DNA of 35,875 nt from an uncultured Blautia sp. (GTDB lineage: Bacteria; Bacillota; Clostridia; Lachnospirales; Lachnospiraceae): positions 1 through 35,875 of the forward strand of contig CAMBAL010000023.1 of NCBI GenBank assembly GCA_945864225.1, written 5' to 3'. This document shows, one piece after another, positions 15,228 to 23,863 of the stretch. Each line of letters opens with the position of its first letter. The first letter of the stretch is position 1. Below the pieces are notes generated by a model. It made no database searches, was not told where the DNA came from, and worked only from the letters and a program-made list of their open reading frames with translations. The translations under genes were made by a program, and so were the position numbers.

Positions 15228-15275
15228 ATATTACAGGAAAGTGCTCCGCATTTTCCTGTAATATAAAAAAGCCTT
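15223..15275. repeat. 53-bp palindromic repeat, copy A
   Basis: It is an inverted repeat with arms TTTTATATTACAGGAAAGTG and CATTTTCCTGTAATATAAAA (one mismatch) around a TCCG-type loop, followed by AAGCCTT. It is identical over 53 bases to 15649-15701. A degenerate relative follows at 15283-15320 (GCAGGAAAGTGCTTCGCATTT core). Confidence 0.9.
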
Positions 15276-15326
15276 CCGGGTATTGCAGGAAAGTGCTTCG
15301 CATTTTTCTATGACATAAAAATATAC

Positions 15327-15355
15327 TTGACGGCAGCTCAAAAAAAGTGTAGAAT
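15327..15355 (+). promoter_or_regulatory. Promoter of the T-box/TRAP operon
   Basis: TTGACG (15327-15332), exactly 17 bases, TAGAAT (15350-15355). It places the transcription start near 15362, just before the T-box leader. Confidence 0.8.
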
Positions 15356-15361
15356 TTCTTT

Positions 15362-15653
15362 AGCTGATTAAACAATTAAAGCTAAGAAGCAAATTCTACG
15401 AAGGGAATAAGTAAATTCGGAATTCTGTCATCAGAGAGCTGTTGTGTGGTGTGAAACAGTGTCAGAACTGAGTTGAAGATCCTCCCTGAGAAGGAAGGCC
15501 GAACGCCATGTATAAGGTGAGTAGGCTTTTTCGGCTGTTCCCCGTTACAGGAACCGCGTATGCCGGTACGTTGCAGAATCGTACTTGTTTCAATGAGGAG
15601 ACAGGGTGGTTGCGGATATTTGTCCGTCCCTATTTCAGGGGCGGGCTTTTTTT
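15362..15653 (+). promoter_or_regulatory. T-box leader (tRNA-sensing riboswitch)
   Basis: Stem I can be folded by eye: AGTA on the 5' side of the specifier loop (15410-15413), AATTCGG (15414-15420) with CTGAGTT (15468-15474), TTCTG (15423-15427) with CAGAA (15463-15467), the AGAGAG bulge motif, and a distal CTGTT/AACAG stem capped by a GTGTGGTGTGAAA-type loop. The 3' S-turn GAA is at 15475-15477; the next triplet is GAT (Asp, 15478-15480), or ATC (Ile, 15479-15481) if shifted by one. Stem II pairs 15498-15507 with 15524-15535 and stem III 15566-15570 with 15580-15584. The T-box proper AGGGTGGTTGCGG is at 15603-15615. The competing terminator is 15622-15631 with 15637-15646, then seven Ts. Uncharged cognate tRNA should allow readthrough into the TRAP genes. 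Confidence 0.9.
15622..15653 (+). terminator. T-box regulated terminator
   Basis: GTCCGTCCCT (15622-15631) pairs with AGGGGCGGGC (15637-15646) including two G-U pairs, followed by TTTTTTT. The left arm also pairs with AGGG and CGG of the T-box sequence to form the alternative antiterminator. Confidence 0.9.
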
Positions 15654-15701
15654 ATATTACAGGAAAGTGCTCCGCATTTTCCTGTAATATAAAAAAGCCT
15701 T
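15649..15701. repeat. 53-bp palindromic repeat, copy B
   Basis: This is an exact copy of 15223-15275, placed directly on the T-run of the T-box terminator and before the TRAP genes. It has a near-perfect 20-bp stem flanked by T- and A-runs, so it could itself act as a terminator or as an RNA processing site. Confidence 0.9.
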
Positions 15702-15720
15702 TATCCTAATCGCAAAAACC

Positions 15721-15756
15721 AGGTATTTTTCACAGAGATGTGAGAAAACACCTACA
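15721..15756 (+). promoter_or_regulatory. Leader hairpin before dctQ
   Basis: AGGTATTTTTCACA and TGTGAGAAAACACCT form an imperfect stem with a short loop between the palindromic repeat and the dctQ ribosome binding site. No T-run follows. The function is unknown. Confidence 0.4.
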
Positions 15757-15812
15757 TTCATTTATCCTATACGAAGAAACAGTGGGTGAAAATTAAAATG
15801 AGGAGGAAAGAT

Positions 15813-16307
15813 ATGAAAGTCTACAAGAAAATCATGAACGCAGTAGCAGCAGTGGAAAAAATCATTCTGATTGTAACCATGCTGCTCATCCTTGTACTGA
15901 CAGTGGGAAATGTTTTTTCCCGAAAAGTCATTCATCGTTCCTGGTCTTTTACCGAGGAACTGGTAGTGGCAGTCTTTGTACTGATCACATTGCTGGCAGC
16001 AGCTCTGGCAGCAAGGGAGGGAGAACTGGTCAGCCTGACGCTGTTCACAGACCGCCTTCCGGAAAAACTCAAAAAACCTTCCGTGATTCTGATTACGGTA
16101 CTGAGTATTGCTTTTACCGCAATTCTGTTTAAATATGGAATGGACAAAGTTATTACCCAGCTGGAAAATGGAAAACGTACCTTTGTACTTAACTGGCCGG
16201 AGTGGATTTTCTGGTCTTTTGTACCGATTGGTGCAGGATGCATGATTTTGCATTTTGTGGAATATTGCCTGGATTTCTGCCTGGGAGATAAGGAGGAAAA
16301 ACGATGA
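15813..16307 (+). CDS. dctQ: TRAP transporter small permease DctQ
   Basis: A 164-residue small membrane subunit of a TRAP (tripartite ATP-independent periplasmic) transporter. Seen: four hydrophobic segments (about residues 17-37, 50-66, 84-104 and 124-148) with the conserved FTEELVVAVFV and AAREGELVSL segments of DctQ. The frame is open to a GTG at 15786, but the AGGAGG at 15801-15806 points to the ATG at 15813. Its stop overlaps the start of the next gene (ATGA at 16304-16307), so the two are translationally coupled. Like the next gene it lies behind the T-box leader and should be induced when the cognate tRNA is uncharged. Confidence 0.9.
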   Translation: MKVYKKIMNAVAAVEKIILIVTMLLILVLTVGNVFSRKVIHRSWSFTEELVVAVFVLITLLAAALAAREGELVSLTLFTDRLPEKLKKPSVILITVLSIAFTAILFKYGMDKVITQLENGKRTFVLNWPEWIFWSFVPIGAGCMILHFVEYCLDFCLGDKEEKR

Positions 16308-19300
16308 TCAGTGCAGTCTTATTTATTTCATTCTTTATTTTCCTGGTTCTGGGTGTGCCGATCGGAATCTGTCTGGGATTGTCATCCGTCTGTGCAATTT
16401 TGTATTCCGGAACATCCCTGACAATTGTTGCGACGAATATGTATTCCGGAATCAGCAAATTCCTGCTGCTGGCCATTCCGTTCTTTGTATTATCCGGAAA
16501 CATCATGGCGAAGGCGGGAATTTCCAAACGTCTGATTAAATTTGTAGATACCTGCGTCGGACACAGAAGAGGCGGCATTGCGATTGTCTGTGTTATTGTA
16601 GCATGTTTCTTTGGCGCAATTTCCGGCTCCGGTCCGGCAACCGTTGCTGCTCTTGGTGCGGTTCTGGTACCGGCTATGGTGGAACAGGGAGGTTTTTCCG
16701 CACCGTTTTCCACAGCACTGATGGCGACAGCCAGTTCGATTGCCATTGTCATACCGCCCAGTATTGCATTTGTGGTATATGCGTCGATTACAGGCGTATC
16801 CATCGCAGATATGTTTATGGCAGGTATTGTACCGGGAATCCTGATGGGGGTTGCTCTTGTCATCGTGGTTATGGTGGAAGCCAGAAGAAAAAATATCCAG
16901 CCTGTTCAGAAGAAAGCTTCTGCAGCGGAGCGTCTGGCGGCATTTAAAGATGCATTCTGGGGATTTCTGATGCCGGTCATCATTCTTGGCGGAATTTATG
17001 GAGGAATTTTCACACCGACAGAAGCAGCAGCGGTATCTGTTGTGTACGGACTCTTTGTGGGTATGGTGATCTATCGGGAAATCAAACTGAAAGATCTGGC
17101 AGAAATTCTGATTGAGTCTGCGAAGACAACCGGTGGAATCATGCTGATCGTTGCATGTGCGTCTCTGTTTTCTTTTGTCTGCACCAAATTCGGTATTGCA
17201 GAGGCAGCATCCGGACTTCTCGCAGGAATTGCGAAGAATCAGTTTATCTTCCTGCTGATCGTCAATGTGATTTTCCTGATCGCAGGATGTTTTATTGATG
17301 CAAACTCAGCCATGTATATTTTTATCCCGATCATGCTTCCGGTATGCAAAGCCCTTGGCTATGATGTGGTGGCATTCGGTGTTATGGCAACGGTAAACCT
17401 TGCCATCGGACAGGTGACTCCTCCGGTTGGTGTCAATCTGTTTGTGGCAATTGGCATCAAAATTAAAAAAGGTCTGGAAGTTACCCTGCAGCAGATTTCC
17501 AAAGCCGTTCTTCCGATGATTGCTGCATGTGTGGCTGTTCTTCTTGTAATTACCTATGTTCCGGAGGTTTCCGTAGCACTTCCCAAGGCACTGGCCAAGA
17601 ATGGTGCTTACACTGGAATCCAGGAAGAACAGACAGAAACCGGTAATTCTGCAGGCGGAAGCGAGGAGCAGAATTTTAATGATATTGCAGATTACAGTGA
17701 TCTGGACTGGCCGGAGATGACCTGGAACTTTGCTTGTTCCACAACAGAAACCAGTACCTGGGCAAAAGCCGGTGAAAAATTCGGCGAGCTGATGGAACAG
17801 GCTACCGGAGGCAAGATCAAAGTCAATGTTTACGCAGCCGATCAGCTGACCAATGGAAATCAGTCGGAAGGAATTCAGGCGCTGATGAATGGAGACCCGG
17901 TACAGATTTCCATGCATTCCAATCTGATCTACTCTGCGTTTGATCCGAGATTTAATGTGGTATCTCTGCCGTTTGCCTACGATTCCGTAGAGGATGCAGA
18001 TGCCAAATTTGATGGAGAAGCAGGAGAAAAACTGAAGGAAATCCTTGGAGAATACGGATTGCACTGTATGGGTATTGCGGAAAACGGATTTCGTGAACTG
18101 ACCAACAGTGTACATGAAGTGAAATCCGTGGAGGATATGAAGAACTTGAAGATTCGTGTGGCAGGCTCCAATCTTCTGATGGAATGTTATAAGAGATGGG
18201 GCGCAGATGCCACCAATATGAACTGGTCTGAAACCTATACAGCTCTGCAGCAGAACACCGTAGAAGGCCAGGAAAATCCGCTTCCTGCCATCGATGCGGC
18301 AAGTGTACAGGAAGTACAGCCATACTGCTCTCTGTGGGATGCCATTTATGACTGTCTGTTCTTCTGTATCAATGAAGAGCTTTATAACAGTTTGACACCA
18401 CAGCAGCAGGTCGTGGTAGATGAAGCAGGCCAGAAAGCCGTAGAATATGAGCGCTACATTAACCGCTCCGGCGACGAAGAAATCATGAGCCGCTGGGAAA
18501 CCAAAAACGGTGTGACCTTTACCGCAAAAGAGGAGATGGACATTGACTCCTTTAAAGAAGCAGTAGAAGGTGTGGATGAGTGGTTTACAGAAGAATTGAA
18601 AAATCAGGGCTTTGATGACGCAGAAGAACTTGTGGAACTTTTCACAGAGGATGTAGCTGCAGAACCGTCTTCCGCAGGGGAGGAAATGTCAGGTGTTACA
18701 GATTCTGAAGACAGCGTCCAGTCAGAAGATGCGGCAAATGTGTCTATGGATGATTACAGTGATCTGGACTGGGAAGAAACAACCTGGAACTTTGCATGCT
18801 CTACTACAGAAACCAGTACCTGGGCCAAAGGCGGCGAGAAATTCGGCGAACTGATGGAGCAGGCTACCGGCGGAAAGGTGAAAGTTAAAGTATATGCAGC
18901 CGATCAGCTGACGAATGGAAATCAGTCTGAAGGAATTCAGGCGCTGATGGATGGAGATCCGGTACAGATTTCTATGCATTCCAATCTGATCTATTCCGCA
19001 TTTGACCCGAGATTTAATGTAGTATCTCTTCCGTTCCTCTTTGATTCCATTGAAGATGCGGATGCCAAGCTGGATGGCGAGGGAGGAGCAATGCTCAATG
19101 AAGTTCTTGGAGAATACGGACTGCACTGCATGGGTATCGCAGAAAATGGATTCCGTGAACTGACTAACAGTGTACATGAAGTGAAATCCGTAGAGGATAT
19201 GAAGAACCTGAAGATCCGTGTGGCAGGCTCCAATCTTTTGATGGAATGTTATAAGAGATGGGGCGCAGATGCCACCAATATGAACTGGTCTGAAACCTAT

Positions 19301-19711
19301 ACAGCTCTGCAGCAGAACACCGTAGAAGGCCAGGAAAATCCGCTTCCTGCCATCGATGCGGCAAGCGTACAGGAAGTACAGCCGTACTGCTCTTTGTGGG
19401 ATGCCATTTATGACTGTCTGTTCTTCTGTATCAATGAAGAACTTTATAACAGTTTGACACCACAGCAGCAGGCCGTGGTAGATGAAGCAGGCCAGAAAGC
19501 CGTAGAATATGAGCGTTACATCAACCGTTCCGGTGATGAAGAAATCATGAGCCGCTGGGAGACGAAGAACGGTGTGACCTTTACAGAGAAAGAAGAGATG
19601 GATATGGATTCTTTCCGTGAAGCTGTAGAAGGTGTGGATGAATGGTTCATTGAAGAACTGAAAAATCAGGGATATGAAGACGGAGCTGAACTGGTAGCAG
19701 CGTTCCGTTAG
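16304..19711 (+). CDS. TRAP large permease fused to two DctP substrate-binding domains
   Basis: One uninterrupted 1135-residue protein. Residues 1 to about 430 are a DctM large permease with many hydrophobic segments and the family motifs GSGPATVAALGAVLVPAM, PPSIAFVVY, TPTEAAAVSVVYGLF and QVTPPVGVNLFVA. After a short polar linker come two DctP-type solute-binding domains at about 463-785 and 817-1135, repeated with a period of exactly 354 codons (1062 bp) and joined by an acidic Ser/Glu linker. Each has the LKIRVAGSN segment with the Arg that in DctP proteins binds the substrate carboxylate (R618 and R972), and NTVEGQENPLPA. Neither has a signal peptide or lipobox; export depends on the permease part, whose C-terminus is reported as extracytoplasmic in the family. 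The likely substrate is an organic or amino acid carboxylate. Confidence 0.92.
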   Translation: MISAVLFISFFIFLVLGVPIGICLGLSSVCAILYSGTSLTIVATNMYSGISKFLLLAIPFFVLSGNIMAKAGISKRLIKFVDTCVGHRRGGIAIVCVIVACFFGAISGSGPATVAALGAVLVPAMVEQGGFSAPFSTALMATASSIAIVIPPSIAFVVYASITGVSIADMFMAGIVPGILMGVALVIVVMVEARRKNIQPVQKKASAAERLAAFKDAFWGFLMPVIILGGIYGGIFTPTEAAAVSVVYGLFVGMVIYREIKLKDLAEILIESAKTTGGIMLIVACASLFSFVCTKFGIAEAASGLLAGIAKNQFIFLLIVNVIFLIAGCFIDANSAMYIFIPIMLPVCKALGYDVVAFGVMATVNLAIGQVTPPVGVNLFVAIGIKIKKGLEVTLQQISKAVLPMIAACVAVLLVITYVPEVSVALPKALAKNGAYTGIQEEQTETGNSAGGSEEQNFNDIADYSDLDWPEMTWNFACSTTETSTWAKAGEKFGELMEQATGGKIKVNVYAADQLTNGNQSEGIQALMNGDPVQISMHSNLIYSAFDPRFNVVSLPFAYDSVEDADAKFDGEAGEKLKEILGEYGLHCMGIAENGFRELTNSVHEVKSVEDMKNLKIRVAGSNLLMECYKRWGADATNMNWSETYTALQQNTVEGQENPLPAIDAASVQEVQPYCSLWDAIYDCLFFCINEELYNSLTPQQQVVVDEAGQKAVEYERYINRSGDEEIMSRWETKNGVTFTAKEEMDIDSFKEAVEGVDEWFTEELKNQGFDDAEELVELFTEDVAAEPSSAGEEMSGVTDSEDSVQSEDAANVSMDDYSDLDWEETTWNFACSTTETSTWAKGGEKFGELMEQATGGKVKVKVYAADQLTNGNQSEGIQALMDGDPVQISMHSNLIYSAFDPRFNVVSLPFLFDSIEDADAKLDGEGGAMLNEVLGEYGLHCMGIAENGFRELTNSVHEVKSVEDMKNLKIRVAGSNLLMECYKRWGADATNMNWSETYTALQQNTVEGQENPLPAIDAASVQEVQPYCSLWDAIYDCLFFCINEELYNSLTPQQQAVVDEAGQKAVEYERYINRSGDEEIMSRWETKNGVTFTEKEEMDMDSFREAVEGVDEWFIEELKNQGYEDGAELVAAFR
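17690..19690 (+). repeat. 1062-bp in-frame tandem duplication (SBP domains)
   Basis: The segments starting GATTACAGTGATCTGGACTGG at 17690 and 18752 are direct repeats. Identity is highest in the second half: roughly 18178-18302 and 19240-19364 look identical base for base, while the first halves carry many synonymous and some amino acid changes. That uneven pattern suggests gene conversion after the duplication. Confidence 0.9.
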
Positions 19712-22893: not shown

Positions 22894-23479
22894 AACGTAT
22901 AATTCTTAGTGCACACCAGAGAAGAAGAAATGCCATGACCGCATTCATTACCCGGTAATGTGCGTTATACAGACGTTTCAGGAGATTTCCGGCAAATGCC
23001 CAGATGAGGTTCCCGATAGCTCCAAGAATCATAAGATATATGGCAAACAGGAAAAGCAGGAGGATACTGCTTTCCCATGGGAGAATAAAAGTGGAAAACA
23101 TGGTCAGTCCGTATAGAATAATTTTTACGATCAAAAGTTGGAGAAAAAGTCCCATCAGATAGGATGGTTCTTTTTCAGCAGCAGAATCGGCAGGTGGTTG
23201 GCGCCGGAAGGTCTGCCAGGCAAGATAAAGAATATAGGCAGCACCGGCATATTTCATGTATGCCTGAATGCCTGGAATGACTTTGCTCAGAGTACTGCAG
23301 AACAGTCCGCTGAGACACATCAGAGTCAGAGAACCGGTCCAGATTCCAAGCATCAGACGGAGATTTTTCCGGATTCCATATTTACTGGAAGTGGATAATA
23401 ACAAAATATTGTTCGGGCCCGGAGACCAGACGGTGATGGCTGCAGAAACAGTCATATTAAGAAAAACGGATAATGGCAT
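22892..23479 (-). CDS. LysE/RhtB family amino acid exporter
   Basis: A 195-residue integral membrane protein of the LysE superfamily, which exports amino acids such as lysine, homoserine or threonine. Seen: about six hydrophobic segments, the family's early SPGPNNILLLSTSSKYG motif near residue 20 and GAAYILYLAWQTFRR in the middle. The frame is open to 23611, but the ATG at 23479 has AAAGGA about ten bases upstream on the minus strand and gives the normal N-terminus (MPLSVFLNM). Gene stands alone, convergent with the GH4 gene. The substrate cannot be assigned from sequence. Confidence 0.88.
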   Translation of the reverse strand: MPLSVFLNMTVSAAITVWSPGPNNILLLSTSSKYGIRKNLRLMLGIWTGSLTLMCLSGLFCSTLSKVIPGIQAYMKYAGAAYILYLAWQTFRRQPPADSAAEKEPSYLMGLFLQLLIVKIILYGLTMFSTFILPWESSILLLFLFAIYLMILGAIGNLIWAFAGNLLKRLYNAHYRVMNAVMAFLLLWCALRIIR

Positions 23480-23863
23480 TGCGTTTTTTCCTTTCATTCC
23501 ATGATAATCACTGTCTATAAAAACAGGTACCTTTATTTTATCATGGCAGGAAAAACAAGGCAAATGAAATTGCATAGATGCGTGACTATTAAATAATCCT
23601 GAATTATTCACGGAACAGTATCTGAACTAAAAAACAGATCCATGAATCAAACAATTGTTTCATGCAGCCATAGCCTTACTCCATAACCCCGTCAAAAGGG
23701 TATAGTATCCCTGTGACAGATTTCAGAGTAGTTATTGAGCTGTCAAGGTTCATTCATAGCTGCTATTCCAGCTGTACATTTAGTTTGCTGATCTATAAAA
23801 ACTGAAAAATAATAATAAATCACATAAAAATGCAGAATAAAACAACTAAAATACGAAAAAGTG

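Follow-up and report, generated by a model that had tools for sequence, protein, structure and literature searches.

This analysis concerns a T-box riboswitch leader that stands directly before the genes of a tripartite ATP-independent periplasmic (TRAP) transporter in an uncultured Blautia sp. of the Lachnospiraceae. The window, i.e. the whole stretch of DNA that was analysed, comprises 35,875 nucleotides (contig CAMBAL010000023.1 of assembly GCA_945864225.1). Its leader carries the isoleucine codon AUC as putative specifier, as do the leaders of related TRAP operons in other genomes. The best explanation is that a T-box responding to uncharged tRNA-Ile controls the operon dctQ-dctMPP and that the encoded importer most likely carries a carboxylate that feeds isoleucine synthesis, a reading considered probable as a whole. 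An earlier note on this DNA had proposed a complete T-box leader with its own consensus promoter upstream of dctQ and a fused permease, and had taken control by a T-box as a clue that the substrate is an amino acid or a direct precursor of one (such as of aspartate or isoleucine).

T-box leader

The elements of the leader region are as follows.

15327..15355, + strand: promoter-like site TTGACG-17-TAGAAT (10/12 consensus bases)
15389..15634, + strand: T-box leader RF00230 (cmscan, 98.8 bits, E-value: 8.7e-21)
15479..15481, + strand: Stem I specifier codon AUC (Ile), next base C (covariance model [CM] alignment and position rule)
15603..15631, + strand: antiterminator AGGG-UGGUU-GCGGA / UCCGU-CCCU (CM alignment and fold; pairing assigned manually)
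15622..15653, + strand: intrinsic terminator, stem 15622-15646 plus U-tract (terminator scan and fold)

RF00230 is the only Rfam family with a match above its gathering threshold in the window. The score exceeds that threshold (93 bits) and the match covers model positions 1-219 of 219, so the leader is complete, as the earlier note had claimed, and the Infernal search which that note had proposed returned a significant match. The AGAGA and GGUG motifs and the specifier loop are present in Stem I of the CM alignment and are common to related leaders. The promoter part of the claim was borne out in part: a site with 10 of the 12 consensus bases does lie at 15327-15355, but the scan gave three promoter-like sites in 751 bases against a shuffled mean of 1.5, so that a promoter at this position is plausible, not proven. 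A similar pattern is found 5' of 15 of the 18 TRAP leaders described below (exceptions: L020, L063 and L080; loci and genomes are cited here by their L and G numbers).

The 3' part of the antiterminator overlaps the terminator stem, and the two are alternative structures. The terminator has a stem of 10 pairs followed by seven T (one found by the scan, 0.6 expected). In the fold predicted without tRNA, the terminator stretch has a free energy of -18.2 kcal/mol and the antiterminator stretch one of -10.0 kcal/mol. The UGGU that would receive the tRNA end lies at 15607-15610, inside a bulge of five nucleotides (UGGUU, 15607-15611), whereas the Rfam consensus bulge has seven. The five-nucleotide form occurs in 10 of the 18 TRAP leaders and the seven-nucleotide form in the remaining eight; UGGU itself is present in all 18, and also in the ileS leaders L008 and L181. 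Bacterial tRNA-Ile has A73 as discriminator base; the last U of UGGU would be its partner. In the ileS leader of the same genome (L008), UGGU stands immediately 5' of GCG, giving a four-nucleotide bulge, such that shortening is seen in both the TRAP and the ileS leaders of this lineage. Because the short bulge is common to several species, this form of the antiterminator is probably functional. The leader is read here as an ordinary, well formed transcriptional Ile T-box, and a dependence on tRNA in the cell appears very likely.

A 27-nucleotide palindrome occurs twice around the leader, at 15233-15259 and 15659-15685 (none expected by shuffling), with a related half-site at 15286. The draft genome holds 28 copies, compared with none in the control. 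The copy at 15659 lies directly 3' of the U-tract of the T-box terminator, and further copies stand behind the T-box terminators of valS and metG. Seven of the 11 copies viewed come after a hairpin and T-run (judged by eye), as if the repeat settles behind terminators.

Specifier codon

The specifier loop of the window is GAA-G-AUC-C-UCCC in the CM alignment. Codons were also read by a position rule, which takes the triplet nine bases 5' of the conserved GAG after Stem I and names no codon beforehand; for the TRAP leaders this reading was anchored on GAGAAG. AUC is listed in all 20 TRAP leader rows, which represent 18 distinct loci (judged by length, L019 and L052 are the same contig, as are L023 and L063; L012 is the window). 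It is the sole triplet in every row except L049, where CCC is listed as well. The base 3' of AUC is A in 15 of these loci, C in two (the window and L024) and G in one.

The control for the position rule consisted of 27 non-TRAP leaders. Nine were taken from the 10 non-TRAP matches in the window's own genome. The other 18 came from the 27 non-TRAP loci of three relatives, for which 30 of the 33 RF00230 matches were fetched. Two of these leaders (L173 and L182) have no usable triplet and several have more than one. All ten leaders that precede tRNA-synthetase genes confirmed by NCBIfam include the right codon (Val GTA, Tyr TAC, Pro CCG, Thr ACT, Met ATG, Leu CTG, Phe TTC and, three times, Ile ATC). 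In six of them (L001, L003, L005, L006, L010 and L153) no other triplet is listed at the Stem I anchor, and in the remaining four (L008, L162, L170 and L181) it is one of two or three. The ileS leaders L008, L170 and L181 all read AUC, and the available part of the TBDB description (PMC7778990) gives AUC in 99% of Ile leaders. By this comparison, the specifier of the TRAP leaders can be settled as AUC, for isoleucine.

The overlapping triplet GAU, one base earlier, would mean that aspartate is sensed and that the transporter carries a C4-dicarboxylate. GAU is indeed found in the window, but it is present in just eight of the 18 TRAP loci and missing from 10, compared with AUC in 18 of 18, and the register that fits the tRNA-synthetase leaders yields AUC. 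(The counts of GAU, UGGU and bulge length come from a pattern that contains ATC and are circular for the codon; the codon count uses the GAGAAG anchor instead.) This reading is considered extremely improbable. Of the substrate options in the earlier note, aspartate with a C4-dicarboxylate thus falls; a substrate linked to isoleucine is probable.

TRAP genes and fused binding domains

The following genes and domains lie downstream of the leader.

15813..16307, + strand: dctQ, small permease subunit (PF04290, 112.9 bits; open reading frame [ORF] listed from GTG 15786)
16304..19711, + strand: dctM-dctP-dctP fusion gene, 1135 amino acids (DctM 376.7 bits, two DctP stretches 450.9 bits)
17708..18643, + strand: first DctP domain of the fusion gene
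18770..19708, + strand: second DctP domain of the fusion gene

Matches to PF04290, PF06808 and PF03480 all exceed their cut-offs, and the DctQ, DctM and DctP domains are thus present. The start of dctQ is probably ATG 15813, which has GAGGAGG 5' of it, and not GTG 15786. The fused permease of the earlier note is a single ORF with a DctM domain as described, but two tandem DctP solute-binding domains at its end had been overlooked. These two copies share 92% identity in protein and 88% in DNA. Tandem Repeats Finder, whose longest period (500) is below the length of one DctP unit, reported no array in the fusion gene. Relatives such as L013, L014, L016, L017 and L050 likewise have two DctP domains joined to DctM, and L069 and L057 have three; the domains are near-identical and their number differs between species. 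Because relatives have the same architecture, the DctM-DctP-DctP arrangement is not an assembly artefact of the draft genome. The closest solved structures are TRAP DctP proteins, the best being 4p8b chain A (E-value: 3.5e-43). This structure was reportedly solved with acetolactate; a literature search for the code found nothing.

Distribution among related TRAP loci

In the draft genome to which the window belongs (2.67 Mb in 115 contigs; completeness: 84%), RF00230 matches at 11 places, six of them above the cut-off. It has four DctM genes, of which only that of the window shares its contig with an adjoining T-box match. When the 1135-amino-acid protein was searched against 299 genomes of the family, 24 of them gave a match at an E-value of 1e-100 or better. 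Among the 13 loci whose long matches ranked best in this whole-genome search (L012-L024), eight have the leader.

In a scan of named genomes, from which the best 80 loci were kept, model R1 found the leader in 12 (E-value: 3.4e-14 or better; next match: 0.13). These include Blautia massiliensis, B. glucerasea, B. wexlerae, Hespellia stercorisuis and other Lachnospiraceae. R1 was built from 25 of the 26 collected Stem I stretches (metG excluded); as RNAalifold retained five pairs, it is mostly a sequence model, suited to finding leaders and not to proving structure. A gathering-level Rfam scan of 12 loci gave no T-box, even in L065 (R1 E-value: 2.7e-15), and so under-counts. In three relatives, the TRAP leader scored 98.8 (L163) and 99.2 bits (L177), above the Rfam cut-off, and 68.3 bits (L164), below it. 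The check proposed in the earlier note, a look for the leader before TRAP genes of related genomes, thus found it in several of them.

Mapped on a 58-row DctM tree, the leader requires seven changes, at least five of them on well supported branches, compared with a shuffled mean of 15.7; contigs that end early were scored as leaderless, which inflates the number of changes. The leader occurs in several separate Lachnospiraceae branches and in no row named Oscillospiraceae. No plasmid copies of the leader were found. T-box control of this TRAP operon appears well supported by the comparison.

Other AUC leaders and isoleucine biosynthesis genes

T-boxes with AUC also precede cstA-like genes in three genomes (L007 in the window's own genome, identified by eye; L156; and L172). 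A second, weaker RF00230 match of the own genome (L011, 44.5 bits) stands before what appear to be broken cstA pieces. The Pfam CstA match of the CstA fragment is above its cut-off, and among equivalogs the pyruvate symporter CstA lies nearest (221.7 bits; cut-off: 1188). An AUC T-box is further found 5' of a BASS-family transporter gene (L161, 1949-2914) in genome G043, which also carries the TRAP leader. The nearest equivalog of this BASS protein is PanS, for ketopantoate/pantoate (296.9 bits; cut-off: 400).

A match to ilvC is present in 18 of 19 genomes (17 above the cut-off, with only a partial match in the own draft and none in G174), and PF00920, which covers both ilvD and edd, is present in all 19. 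Isoleucine auxotrophy as the reason for the importer is unsupported by these counts. Since almost all of the 19 genomes retain ilvC and ilvD-type genes, the importer would supplement isoleucine synthesis.

LysE-type neighbour gene

One further gene of the window may be relevant to the substrate.

22895..23611, - strand: LysE-superfamily exporter gene (nearest NCBIfam model: cysteine/O-acetylserine exporter, below cut-off)

A LysE-type gene adjoins 13 of the 41 nearer TRAP loci (L048-L088), on either side and in either orientation, compared with none of the 39 distant ones (Fisher p 8e-5, a guide only, since the loci are related, the flanks are unequal and the nearer clade supplied the probes). 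Where neighbouring ORFs were scanned (49 of 65 in a first set and 44 of 77 in a second), LysE was the commonest family in both sets, with five and four members; other families had at most two members in the first and three in the second. A functional link between the LysE gene and the TRAP operon may be inferred from this association.

Proposed model and substrate

The proposed model for regulation of the TRAP operon is as follows. When tRNA-Ile is well charged, the terminator at 15622-15653 would form and transcription would halt. When it is uncharged, the AUC of Stem I would bind its anticodon, and UGGU its free NCCA end. The antiterminator stabilized by the tRNA would allow readthrough, and the TRAP importer would be made. 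The importer would then bring in a carboxylate that feeds isoleucine synthesis.

Recurrence of the leader before related TRAP operons in other genomes favours a substrate linked to the amino acid sensed, and a link between substrate and isoleucine is probable. More specifically, a branched 2-oxo or 2-hydroxy acid such as 3-methyl-2-oxopentanoate is a serious possibility for the substrate, held tentatively. Such a precursor ranks first, and free isoleucine second, because of the other genes found behind AUC T-boxes, the structures nearest to DctP together with known TRAP ligands, the LysE neighbour and the retained ilv genes. The TRAP ligands named in the available part of one source (PMC5812351) include 2-acetolactate and pantoate/D-erythronate.

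A broader and more speculative proposal is that the Lachnospiraceae possess an isoleucine-starvation regulon, controlled by AUC T-boxes, for salvage of the isoleucine carbon skeleton. The skeleton would be taken up in the form of a 2-oxo or 2-hydroxy acid, and not as the amino acid, through unrelated carboxylate importers (the TRAP transporter with tandem fused binding domains, CstA and the PanS-like BASS protein). The LysE-type exporter encoded beside this TRAP clade would act as a counterweight on the amino acid side.

Alternative explanations

Several observations weigh against this model. The leader is absent from 68 of the 80 named-genome TRAP loci and from all seven further loci searched with R1, although absence says little for some of these (e.g. 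L061, L074, L083 and L086) because their contigs stop just upstream. Neither tRNA-Ile nor its discriminator base was found in the window's own draft genome, so the proposed UGGU pairing rests on A73 of bacterial tRNA-Ile in general. The CstA and PanS assignments lie below their NCBIfam cut-offs, and with ilvC and ilvD-type genes retained it is not evident why a precursor would have to be imported. The base after AUC is C in the window and not a purine, and a weak promoter-like site (TTCACA-18-TACATT, 15729-15758, + strand, 9/12 bases) lies between the leader and dctQ. These last two features, together with the five-nucleotide bulge, would fit a leader that is no longer, or not mainly, in control, with the TRAP genes read from a promoter 3' of the terminator. 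Such a loss is nevertheless very unlikely: terminator and antiterminator are intact, the Rfam score is above gathering, the short bulge is a conserved form among the TRAP leaders, and C also follows AUC in the ileS leader L170 and the cstA leader L156.

The T-box may be functional and yet serve a different cargo. Transport of free L-isoleucine, or of branched amino acids generally, would agree with the invariant AUC of the TRAP leaders and with the transporters usually found under T-box control, which import the amino acid itself (ABC, LIVCS, APC, NSS, MFS and NHAC in the available part of PMC2494555). TRAP DctP proteins, in contrast, bind mostly organic acids according to the accessible portion of PMC12344293, and the families of the other transporters under AUC control in these genomes have 2-oxo acids as substrates; free isoleucine is thus considered unlikely as the cargo. 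Somewhat less likely again is an Ile-responsive T-box that acts as a starvation signal for uptake of a general carbon source, e.g. pyruvate or another 2-oxo acid. The AUC T-boxes before cstA in L007, L156 and L172 speak for it, pyruvate symporters being the nearest, below-cut-off relatives, but one would expect starvation signalling to draw on several amino acids, whereas the codon in all 18 TRAP loci is AUC. Import of an isoleucine-feeding carboxylate under control of uncharged tRNA-Ile remains the preferred explanation.

Comparison with known systems

The leader resembles the Ile-type transcriptional T-boxes of RF00230 that precede ileS in its Stem I motifs, AUC, UGGU and antiterminator/terminator switch. 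It differs from them in its target, a TRAP operon, and in the five-nucleotide bulge seen in part of the TRAP leaders. Ile T-boxes before amino acid transporters (LIVCS and ABC) are known from Wels et al. 2008 (PMC2494555); the available part of that paper names no TRAP transporter, and 'trap' there denotes the trp attenuation protein. A paper retrieved for T-boxes and dicarboxylates (PMC9943018) concerns, in its accessible part, antisense riboswitches. No link between T-boxes and TRAP transporters was found in the literature searched; Vitreschak et al. 2008 and Gutierrez-Preciado et al. 2009 may mention one, and TBDB may list such leaders. The TRAP operon is accordingly a class of T-box target without a description in that literature.

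As in DctP-type TRAP transporters generally, DctQ, DctM and DctP are encoded in one operon. DctQ-DctM fusions have been described (PMC5812351, in part), whereas here DctM is fused to two DctP domains, or to three in L069 and L057. The TAXI-GltS fusions of Lachnospiraceae likewise join a binding protein to a secondary transporter in the same family of bacteria, and the available part of their description (PMC12344293) explains them as tethering in the absence of a periplasm. These fusions have one N-terminal binding domain, while DctM-DctP proteins of the type in the window have two or three C-terminal ones.

Significance

TRAP transporters are common and their substrates are hard to guess. A leader with an invariant isoleucine codon offers a direct and testable clue to the substrate of one TRAP family of gut bacteria, and would extend T-box control to a transporter class not connected with T-boxes in the literature searched. 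Because cstA and the BASS gene share the AUC codon with the TRAP operon, these leaders suggest that some gut Clostridia meet isoleucine shortage by importing organic acids. If the proposed salvage of the isoleucine skeleton is true, this TRAP family would be a dedicated scavenger of branched 2-oxo acids in the gut.

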